This document shows, in pieces, positions 57,472-60,291 of a stretch of DNA of 64,000 nt. The stretch's first letter is position 1; each line of letters opens with the position of its first letter. Source of the DNA: Bacteroidota bacterium. Its GTDB lineage: Bacteria; Bacteroidota; Bacteroidia; Chitinophagales; Chitinophagaceae. The notes beneath the pieces were generated by a model. The model was not told where the DNA came from. It did not search any database and saw only the letters and a program-made list of their open reading frames with translations. The translations under genes and the position numbers were made by a program. The stretch covers positions 1 to 64,000 of the forward strand of contig JABDBG010000001.1 in assembly GCA_013288745.1 (NCBI GenBank), in the 5' to 3' direction.

Positions 57472-57503
57472 TATTATTTGATCTGCACGCTACTACAGTT
57501 ATA

Positions 57504-57511
57504 AATATATT
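57504..57511. repeat. 8-bp target-site duplication, left copy
   Basis: AATATATT directly outside the left inverted repeat, identical to 60123-60130. Confidence 0.85.
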
Positions 57512-57605
57512 GGCACTTATATAGTTGTTTAACCAGCCAATAAGTGCAAATTTAGTGTTAAAATCCTGTTCCTTTTCTCTACTTTTGTTAAAAATAATAC
57601 ACCCC

Positions 57606-57869
57606 ATGTCTGACTTTCTCCATACCCGTGTTTTTCTCGATCAAGGCGAGATCGCTGTTTTAGACTGTGATACTCAATGCAATTTCATTTTACTTGATGA
57701 CCACAATTTTCAAATTTATAAAAATAGAGGTCAGTTTACGTATTATGGTCAATATTTCACATATTTCCCTGCTAGAATTGCAGCTCCCTTTTCTGGTTAT
57801 TGGAATACTGTTATTTATACAGATGGACCTGCCACTATTAAACATAGCTTAACCTTCATTACCAGATAA
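57606..57869 (+). CDS. DUF1883-like small protein (transposon passenger)
   Basis: 87 aa from ATG 57606 (a longer frame upstream lacks family similarity). Pattern: FLHTRVFLDQGEIAVLDCDTQCNFILLDDHNFQIYKNRG...FPARIAAPFSGYWNTVIY, matching DUF1883, a small beta-sandwich found alone or joined to TIR domains in other proteins. No TIR partner here. The role is unknown; in other contexts DUF1883 with TIR suggests defence or signalling, but nothing here proves that. It lies inside the IS1595-family element and overlaps the next small gene at its 3' end. Confidence 0.75.
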   Translation: MSDFLHTRVFLDQGEIAVLDCDTQCNFILLDDHNFQIYKNRGQFTYYGQYFTYFPARIAAPFSGYWNTVIYTDGPATIKHSLTFITR

Positions 57870-58028
57870 GCCCAATTGCCCTTTAGTCTGTTCCAAAGCA
57901 TCTTCTAATACCTTAACTACATTTTGTAAAAAAGACTTATCCTTTTTACTTATTCCTCTGGATTGGTTTCCCTCTCTGGTAAATTCCCAATCTTCATCGT
58001 TGATTGATACTGTTACTTTGGTAATCAT
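57849..58028 (-). CDS. 59-aa small protein overlapping the DUF1883-like gene
   Basis: ATG at 58028, TAA at 57849; 59 codons. Soluble and charged, with a likely amphipathic helix (KDKSFLQNVVKVLEDALEQTKG). It overlaps the convergent DUF1883-like gene by 21 bp at the 3' ends. It is an uninterrupted frame in an otherwise gene-free stretch with protein-like composition. No family recognised; a partner or antagonist of the DUF1883-like protein is possible but speculative. Confidence 0.5.
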   Translation of the reverse strand: MITKVTVSINDEDWEFTREGNQSRGISKKDKSFLQNVVKVLEDALEQTKGQLGLSGNEG

Positions 58029-58142
58029 TTTCTACATTTATTACCTAAACTTCCTAACAAATTATATCTTTAGCTGAAAACTTAGTGCCTATGGTTATAT
58101 AAAAAGAATTCGATACATATCTGTATTAAGGACATAAGGTTG

Positions 58143-58250
58143 GCATTCTAAATTACCACGTTTCCAATATCACCCACTTTATGACATCAATACGCTACAT
58201 AATGGCGTAGTTGTGTCTTTGGGTGATAGGCTGTGGTAAGCCTTGAATGC
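58143..58250 (+). ncRNA. Long imperfect hairpin within the transposon (possible structured RNA)
   Basis: Successive pairs: GCATTC/GAATGC, ACCAC/GTGGT, TATCACCCA/TGGGTGATA and TACGC/GCGTA, nested over 108 nt. It lies 56 nt before the secreted-protein ATG. It could be a 5' UTR structure, a recombination site or a separate RNA. Confidence 0.45.
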
Positions 58251-58305
58251 TAAAAGAATGTCAACTGCGCCTATTTATTTTCTTAACATTCTAAATTACC
58301 ACACA

Positions 58306-58800
58306 ATGAGAAAACCATCATTGTACACCTATGCACTCTCGCTATTACTGTTGTTGTCTTTTAAAGCGTATTCTCAAAGACCAACACTAAATGAAATAGC
58401 AACATTATTTAATAAAACTCCTTCACCCATTTCCGTCAAAACATTCTTATTATCAAAAGGCTTTACCTATCAAGGTAAGGATGATGAATTTTATAACTAT
58501 GAACTTCCTGAATATGGTAATGTCTGTGATATTCAGATTGGTTATCAAAAAGGAAGATTAAATGTATTTTCTACTCAACAATCGATTATGTATTTTCAAC
58601 AATACTTATCAATTCTTTATCAAAATGGTTTTATCTTGGGGAAGCACTTTCCACCAGAAAATGTAGTCGATGGGAGACCTATTCCACAGGATGGAGCTTC
58701 CTTTCAATTTACTAACAAAGCTCTACATTTAAGTTGTGTAATGATATTTCCTGTAGAAAATAACAATGGGTTTCTACTGAACTACTGTAGATATCCGTAA
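58306..58800 (+). CDS. Secreted protein of unknown function (transposon passenger)
   Basis: 164 aa from ATG 58306, which opens a signal peptide (YTYALSLLLLLSFKAYSQ); an upstream TTG frame is unlikely. Mature part is mixed alpha/beta with two Cys, including GNVCDIQIGYQKGRLNVFS and a C-terminal LSCVMIFP...LLNYCRYP. No family recognised. A terminator follows before the transposase, which runs in the opposite direction. Confidence 0.65.
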   Translation: MRKPSLYTYALSLLLLLSFKAYSQRPTLNEIATLFNKTPSPISVKTFLLSKGFTYQGKDDEFYNYELPEYGNVCDIQIGYQKGRLNVFSTQQSIMYFQQYLSILYQNGFILGKHFPPENVVDGRPIPQDGASFQFTNKALHLSCVMIFPVENNNGFLLNYCRYP

Positions 58801-58812
58801 TTGATTTTTTAT

Positions 58813-58840
58813 AAAGCAGCAGTAACATGCTGCTTTTCTT
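58813..58840 (+). terminator. Terminator after the passenger secreted-protein gene
   Basis: AAAGCAGCA / TGCTGCTTT stem with a 6-nt loop, then TCTTTCTTT. Confidence 0.8.
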
Positions 58841-58843
58841 TCT

Positions 58844-59782
58844 TTATCGGAATTGCAAACTGTCTCTAGTCAAGTCTTGATGCCTTAACCGGCATTCAAC
58901 ATGAGATAAGGCTAACTTAAATCTTTCGCTATCAGTTAGTAACCGTGTATTGAATCTAAAGGCAAACTCATCACAATACCTTTGTAAGTATTTACGACTC
59001 ACCTTATGGTATACACCTATTATCATTCTCTTTAAATGGCTCCATGCTCCTTCAAGTGGATTAGTTGTAAACCCTTGATCGTTTACATATTGAGATCTAC
59101 CATGATCTACTACAAAGTGTGTATAGTCTTTATCTAATCCCTTGTATGCCTTCCATTCATCTGTTACTATGATACTATTAGTTTCTATTGTTTTGTAGAC
59201 TAATGGCTTCAATACTTCAGCTCTCGTGTTCGGTATTACTATAGTTTTTATGTTACCATTTTCATCTAGCATACCTAATACTGGTGTCTTGTCCTTAAAG
59301 CTTCTTCCTTTGTTATATTTCACCTTTTTGTGGAAAGGTCTGTTTCTGTTTTTCCCACCTACGAATGTTTCGTCTATTTGTATTAACCCTTTCAGCTTCA
59401 CTTTCGTTATCCTGCTTCTTAACATAAATCTTATCCTTTGTAACATAAACCATGCTGTTGGCTGTGTTACAGTTATATTCCTAGATAGCTGTGTGGAACT
59501 GATTCCTTTCTTATCACATAGCATTAAGTAGATGGCTACGAACCATTTCTGTAAGGTAATAGGACTATTCTCGAATATTGTTCCTTTAATTACAGAGAAT
59601 TGCTTTAAACACTTTGCGCACTTATATCTTTTGTTCTTACCTGTTAGATTATATACTTTGTTATGTTTACAAAATGTACACATAATTCCTTCACTCCATC
59701 TCAACCTTACCAGCAGATCAATACACCTCTGATTGTCGGAGAAGTATTCAAATATTTGGATTAGGTTGTTGTTTTGGTTCAT
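58844..59782 (-). CDS. IS1595-family (ISXO2-like) DDE transposase
   Basis: 312 aa. N-terminal zinc ribbon (CTFC near 35, CAKC near 54) and helix-turn-helix (STQLSRNITVTQPTAWFMLQR), then the ISXO2-like DDE domain: IDETFVGG near 136, TDEWKAY, and NPLEGAWSHLKRM as the third acidic region. Uninterrupted and of normal length, so probably functional. It lies near the right end of the 2.6-kb element. Confidence 0.92.
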   Translation of the reverse strand: MNQNNNLIQIFEYFSDNQRCIDLLVRLRWSEGIMCTFCKHNKVYNLTGKNKRYKCAKCLKQFSVIKGTIFENSPITLQKWFVAIYLMLCDKKGISSTQLSRNITVTQPTAWFMLQRIRFMLRSRITKVKLKGLIQIDETFVGGKNRNRPFHKKVKYNKGRSFKDKTPVLGMLDENGNIKTIVIPNTRAEVLKPLVYKTIETNSIIVTDEWKAYKGLDKDYTHFVVDHGRSQYVNDQGFTTNPLEGAWSHLKRMIIGVYHKVSRKYLQRYCDEFAFRFNTRLLTDSERFKLALSHVECRLRHQDLTRDSLQFR

Positions 59783-60122
59783 TCAGAACATAAAACTACT
59801 ATTCCCTACATTTGTTAGCTAAAAAGTACTGTTGCACTATTAAAATACTGCTCTGCGCATTTTGCAGTTTCGAAAATTTGTTCTATATTAGGTATAGAAA
59901 AAACCACTACTATCAATAGTGGTTCTTAAAAACCTAATATGAGAATTACTAAAGATCCGTGAAAGGGAGGAAAATTAACAAAATCTCAAATACAAGCTAA
60001 ATTATCAGGCCTCACTGTGAAGTGGGGCCTTCAACTTTTATAAACTTACATTTTATTACCTTTGCGTAGATGATTTCTTCTGGCCTTGTATCTTTATTTG
60101 GTTAAAGTACTATATAAGTGCC
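59783..60122. other. Right end region of the transposon
   Basis: Holds a 7-bp hairpin (59903-59923), a short plus-strand ORF broken by one TGA (59939-60043) and a 9-bp hairpin (60007-60030). No complete gene. Confidence 0.5.
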
Positions 60123-60130
60123 AATATATT
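60123..60130. repeat. 8-bp target-site duplication, right copy
   Basis: AATATATT directly outside the right inverted repeat. Confidence 0.85.
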
Positions 60131-60291
60131 TTAATACAAACGCAAAGGTAAACCCATTTTTTGCAAAAATTTGTAGTAGAAATGCTAACAGATGTGTAAA
60201 ACTGCTTCTAATTGGGTACCAATAACTGCACATATGTGTAAAACCCTATTAGAAAAAAAGGCGATTTGTAACGATATTTGTAAGAGACATT

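Follow-up and report, generated by a model that had tools for sequence, protein, structure and literature searches.

A structured leader RNA before a passenger gene of a Bacteroidota IS1595-family transposon: a candidate switch for mobile cargo

The stretch of DNA analysed here (the window) comprises positions 1 to 64,000 of contig JABDBG010000001.1 (assembly GCA_013288745.1) from a Bacteroidota bacterium of the family Chitinophagaceae, and it contains an IS1595-family transposon with three passenger genes. The third passenger is preceded by a structured leader RNA that, by comparative evidence, belongs to a real and uncatalogued RNA class. It is fairly probable that this class is carried mainly by Bacteroidota mobile elements and acts as a transcription attenuator and start-site switch for mobile cargo. 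The structure and location of the RNA rest on comparison of sequences, and we infer the switching and its trigger. The structured RNA is the recurrent and novel part of the locus; the transposon alone, and its cargo set, are ordinary. An earlier note made from the letters of the window described the transposon and its passengers and overlooked the RNA (58138-58281) lying between the cargo genes.

Structure and distribution of the leader RNA

The RNA and its surroundings comprise the following features.

58065-58073, + strand: promoter-like TAnnTTTG-type -7 box (TATCTTTAG) of the RNA-led gene, called from box enrichment across copies
58085-58102, + strand: mini-open reading frame (mini-ORF) GTG CCT ATG GTT ATA TAA, with position-matched mini-ORFs in other copies
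58123-58135, + strand: P0a, possible partner of 58181-58193 (helix P0)
58138-58281, + strand: structured leader RNA core (covariance models R1 and R2), called from covariation, family copies, helix tests and fold energy
58142-58159, + strand: A1 (58142-58148), partner of 58245-58250 in helix P1, and A2 (TTACCAC, 58153-58159), partner of the hairpin H loop
58168-58228, + strand: P3 (58168-58176 with 58220-58228) and P2 (58191-58195 with 58204-58208)
58204-58281, + strand: terminator-like stem T (58204-58213 with 58262-58271), then a T-rich run (58272-58281)
58229-58242, + strand: hairpin H, GGC[TGTGGTAA]GCC, whose loop pairs with A2 or D
58287-58304, + strand: D region, with the second copy of the 16-nt repeat CATTCTAAATTACCAC at 58287-58302, which stops 3 nt short of the start codon
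58306-58800, + strand: passenger 3, the RNA-led gene, an ORF for a 164-aa exported-looking protein

Comparison of the element at DNA level with 200 genomes of the same family found transposases and, in about ten genomes, a non-coding stretch (~58199-58314). This stretch holds one of two perfect 16-nt direct repeats (58144-58159 and 58287-58302), which lie 143 nt apart from start to start. The first 11 RNA copies align with uniform length. Their helices are paired in 94% of cells against 87% in shuffles, 10 pairs are changed on both sides, and the covariation score of 0.33 (against 0.20) was reached by no shuffle or slide. A covariance model gave 62 matches in 40 of 299 family genomes and 22 of 104 genera, with one to four matches per genome; L126, a weak match inside an integrase ORF, was set aside as a likely false positive, leaving 61 credible copies. 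With a second covariance model, the RNA was found at low frequency beyond this family, both in further families of its order and in additional classes of the phylum. The E-values of both models are rough. Records with the RNA include metagenome-assembled genomes of Taibaiella and Flavipsychrobacter.

The helices were tested by comparing pairing within each of the 61 copies with partners from other copies. None of 2000 permutations reached the observed mean for any helix, and the z values (P3 24.2, P1 18.6, A2-loop 14.7, T 11.6, H 8.8, P2 7.6 and P0 6.0) overstate independence, since the test leaves the relatedness of copies in. P0, a would-be competitor of P2, is the weakest and least certain helix. 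A stronger argument for structure than the z values is the variety of compensating versions. The pairs of A2 with the loop occur in about 12 Watson-Crick versions (e.g., TACCAC/GTGGTA, CTCCAA/TTGGAG, GTCGAA/TTCGAC and CGCCAG/CTGGCG), and P3, which has 6-16 bp in most copies, is nearly free in sequence while its complementarity is kept. Furthermore, the window leader folds with a z of -5.1, its 3' part folded alone gives stem T, and a T-rich run follows T in nearly all copies, including distant ones. As compared across copies, D belongs to part of the class, whereas P1, P2, the terminator-like stem and the pseudoknot are general to it.

The D region repeats the A2 hexamer at the start site. The A2 hexamer of a copy recurs downstream in 38 of the 61 copies, against 10.4 ± 2.3 in permutations (maximum 19), and in 36 of these 38 the recurrence lies 0-5 nt before an ATG. 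When the commonest hexamer is excluded, recurrence is still seen in 18 of 35 copies (3.0 ± 1.5 permuted). Across copies, D changes in step with A2 and the hairpin loop. It is present in 21 of 27 copies linked to IS1595 and in 17 of 34 others, and the loop versions TTCGAC, TTCCAG and TTCGAG occur without it.

Upstream of the RNA, a TAnnTTTG-type box was found in 49 of 62 copies (13.9 ± 2.9 in shuffles), and a mini-ORF of one to five codons follows the box in 39 of 49 (against 17.9 ± 3.1), most starting ~20-32 nt after the box start. Downstream, most family copies have a same-strand ORF that begins ~160-180 nt past the start of the RNA; in the window, the ATG at 58306 lies at 168 nt. RNA-led ORFs of at least 80 aa (n = 49) have an exported-like N-terminus in 39 cases, as called by a simple hydrophobicity rule, and a lipobox-like one in 18, compared with 21% and 4% of neighbouring ORFs. 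The 164-aa passenger protein itself had no Pfam match, and a search of 299 genomes at E≤1e-4 gave no relative.

No relevant match to a known RNA was found among the 4227 families of Rfam 15 for the window, three family loci and nine distant loci. A U6atac hit on the minus strand (58755-58876, E 0.05, below the gathering score) lies on the opposite strand and outside the RNA, and is a chance match. Searches of the openly available literature turned up no description of an RNA of this kind or of leaders in IS1595 elements. A phage or plasmid origin was also considered and rejected, as the leader DNA had no match in phage or plasmid collections. One IMG/VR contig (L205) carries two apparent tandem RNA copies (L205:1000-1340), the first followed by a 7-codon ORF, and both have the CGCCAG version of the hexamer and of the start-site copy. 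On another contig, L206 (CAILLK010000142.1), the RNA pattern is matched twice, at sites ~2.1 kb apart that possibly belong to one element with two RNA-led genes.

The proposed switch and its alternatives

The RNA is likely to act as a switch. Stem T excludes P2, as the two share a strand, and A2 competes with D for one loop, which is consistent with a grouping of the helices into two states. In the ON fold (P1, A2-loop, P3 and P2), the terminator would be blocked and the start site free. In the OFF fold, T would form and transcription would stop; should a transcript continue past T, the H loop, freed from A2, would pair with D and hide the ribosome-binding region. The presence of the mini-ORF makes its translation the first guess for the trigger, followed by a small ligand. 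The leader, once terminated, might also work in trans as a small RNA. A short ORF lies upstream of alternative stems, as in leader-peptide attenuators, and the leader is conserved with alternative terminator and antiterminator stems, as in riboswitches.

Several observations weigh against a two-state switch of this kind, in addition to the relatedness left in the helix test. Of the 61 family copies, 23 lack D, as do most distant copies, and the T-rich run is interrupted in the window copy (TATTTATTTT). Fold prediction gives ON as the lowest-energy state of the leader for 57 of 61 copies. OFF must therefore be favoured by a trigger or by the kinetics of folding, unless the leader is ON by default and is switched off by some factor. 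Finally, 21 of the 61 copies have no recombinase in the available stretch, nine of these with at most 2.1 kb on one side; carriage on mobile elements is thus established for part of the copies and not for all.

The compact pseudoknotted core, the terminator platform and the unpaired but conserved segments separating P3 from P2 would also suit a metabolite-binding riboswitch travelling with cargo genes, in which the mini-ORF would be unimportant and D, absent from many copies, a minor addition. Against this, the RNA-led genes have no pathway in common and encode mostly unrelated small exported proteins. In addition, the mini-ORF is enriched and well placed. We therefore regard this reading as unlikely, though it is the most serious competitor. 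Less probable again is a role of the terminated leader itself as the conserved product, a small RNA acting in trans (e.g., at the D site of its own mRNA or those of others), with the adjacent gene merely one target. The T-rich run behind a strong stem in nearly all copies and the complementarity of the loop to the start-site segment would fit this, and there is a precedent in a terminated SAM-II riboswitch acting as a small RNA in Sinorhizobium, described in PMC9373788. However, a purely trans-acting RNA would have no need of the fixed position just upstream of a same-strand ORF that is seen in most family copies.

Two further explanations can be given very little weight. An RNA with a variable loop inside a transposon might guide transposition, in the manner of the omega RNAs of IS200/IS605 relatives or the bridge RNAs of IS110, but this RNA accompanies three unrelated types of recombinase, and in the same genomes it is lacking near many of the IS1595 transposase genes. 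Guidance of transposition was rejected on direct comparison, as the hexamer or its complement occurs in the ends or flanks of none of 24 elements (0.66 ± 0.67 permuted). Omega and bridge RNAs are likewise structured RNAs within mobile elements; unlike them, the present RNA goes with other recombinases, is sometimes absent and has no match to the element ends. The two 16-nt repeats, perfect and 143 nt apart, could in turn be a duplication left by nested insertion or a recombination site rather than an RNA feature. This is hardly credible, given that the stretch between them covaries as RNA, that the repeats and the complementary segment between them vary in concert across copies, and that the second repeat lies 0-5 nt before the ATG in most copies that have one. 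The idea of a barcode, in which copies in one genome avoid each other's hexamer, was also dropped; the same hexamer was found in 7 of 33 same-genome pairs by hand count, about as expected.

The proposed attenuator and start-site switch resembles known riboswitches and transcription attenuators in its two stems on one shared strand, its T-rich run and its leader position. It differs from them in having no Rfam 15 match in the loci scanned, in a hairpin loop that can choose between two partners, of which one is at the start site, and in its distribution on mobile elements. The tetQ leader of CTnDOT, which is likened here by description, is also a leader RNA on a Bacteroidota mobile element that controls a cargo gene, and its leader peptide is very short. 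Attenuation of tetQ on this Bacteroides element (PMC5418344) is described as translational and concerns a resistance gene, whereas the present leaders add a terminator-like stem and precede exported proteins.

A broader and more tentative proposal is that the RNA class is shared across the phylum and senses translation, switching exported cargo on mobile elements as unrelated as transposons and islands with tyrosine or serine recombinases. The loop would choose between the upstream hexamer and the start-site copy, the mini-ORF would be the sensor, and mobile cargo would be expressed only when the host is in a certain physiological state. If so, elements with three unrelated kinds of recombinase would have one RNA control device in common, and the timing of mobile cargo expression would become directly testable. 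The agreement of loop, upstream hexamer and start-site copy pinpoints the exact bases for mutation. The covariance model doubles as a marker for mobile cargo genes, many of which encode unannotated exported proteins.

Genomic setting of the RNA copies

An IS1595 transposase lies within ~5 kb of 27 of the 61 copies, and in 24 of these the RNA and transposase are enclosed by matching ends and an 8-bp duplication (offset by one base in L116). Each of the 24 bordered elements has one gene starting ~160-185 nt after the RNA start. The transposases near RNA copies are 30-66% identical to that of the window, indicating that the RNA carriers are not one recent lineage. In 26 RNA-positive genomes, the RNA lies near 23 of 54 IS1595 transposase hits (hand count), which is no general fraction, as these genomes were picked for holding the RNA.

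Among the 34 copies without an IS1595 transposase, 13 accompany tyrosine integrases, excisionase-like proteins or serine recombinases. Copies of Chitinophaga type (the genus being presumed) are often found with a divergent helix-turn-helix regulator on one side and, on the other, an operon that includes a serine recombinase. Related RNA-led genes were found both inside IS1595 elements and outside them, which suggests that the RNA and its gene may move together between elements. A recurrent, uncharacterised protein family is encoded downstream of distant copies L177, L178, L181, L182, L185, L189 and L122, some of them near a serine recombinase.

The transposon and its other passengers

The element itself is made up as follows.

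57504-57511, no strand: target duplication, left copy, 8 bp (AATATATT), identical to 60123-60130
57512-60122: IS1595-family transposon, 2611 bp, defined by ends, duplication and transposase
57512-57535, + strand: left terminal inverted repeat, 24 bp, matching the right end at 22 of 24 positions
57606-57869, + strand: passenger 1, DUF1883 protein, 87 aa (Pfam PF08980, E 7e-18; weak match to solved structure 2b1y, E 0.007)
57849-58028, - strand: passenger 2, 59-aa ORF whose 3' end overlaps passenger 1 by ~20 nt
58844-59782, - strand: IS1595-family transposase, 312 aa (PF12762, E 6e-47; NF033547, 206 bits)
60099-60122, - strand: right terminal inverted repeat, 24 bp, from inverted-arm detection
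60123-60130, no strand: target duplication, right copy, 8 bp, identical to 57504-57511

By its sequence, the window element is an intact IS1595-family transposon and a new member of a known family. The earlier note had described it as such, with a DUF1883 protein, a 59-aa overlapping ORF and an exported-looking protein as passengers, and both descriptions hold. The transposase exceeds the curated cut-offs for PF12762 (159.8 bits; 27), the PF12760 zinc ribbon (33.2; 25.4) and NF033547 (206; 75). D137, D208 and E244, which by position we take to be the catalytic acidic residues, each reach at least 92% conservation across 27 aligned transposases. The terminal repeats GGCACTTATATAGTTGTTTAACCA and GGCACTTATATAGTACTTTAACCA are flanked by AATATATT on both sides. 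Inverted arms detected in the window (57503-57535 / 60099-60131) reach past the element ends because the duplication is a palindrome; the border was set by the GG..CC ends, as in the other elements found.

The C40-peptidase gene adjoins dnaE without insert, terminal repeats or cargo in seven congeners, and the gap between the two genes is 205 nt in G335 compared with ~201 nt in the window minus the element and one duplication. These empty sites settle the mobility of the element. The search for ends and empty sites that the earlier note proposed thus found seven uninterrupted loci, and the cargo was not seen kept at this locus apart from the repeats and transposase. In the source genome (72% complete), only one full-length copy of the element and one exact pair of ends were found. 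Two more IS1595 transposase genes lie on its other contigs (G000:C3:32401-32850 and G000:C55:9-434), and the covariance model found no RNA copy beside them.

IS1595-family elements carry passenger genes, and the window element shares with the family (PF12762, NF033547) a zinc ribbon and DDE transposase, GG-type ends, an 8-bp duplication and passengers. Unlike the family, it has a structured leader RNA before one passenger gene, an arrangement of which we know no report. Duplications of 8 bp are known for the IS1016 group of IS1595 and for Merlin (PMC10045372). Terminal inverted repeats with an 8-bp target duplication were likewise found in 23 relatives of the window element. The earlier suggestion that the palindromic duplication reflects target preference did not survive this comparison. 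Palindromes make up just 2 of 24 duplications and 90% of the bases are A or T, which points to a preference of these elements for A/T-rich DNA and not for palindromes.

The 59-aa passenger resembles, by eye, a 69-aa ORF in the closest element (L030), although tblastn at E≤1e-3 gave no report of that ORF. At its right end, the window element has non-coding DNA (59860-60045) that gave no Rfam match and was not seen in relatives. This DNA contains two hairpins, one in the region of 59908-59926 (AACCACTACTATCAATAGTGGTT) and a GGCC-rich one near 60010-60035.
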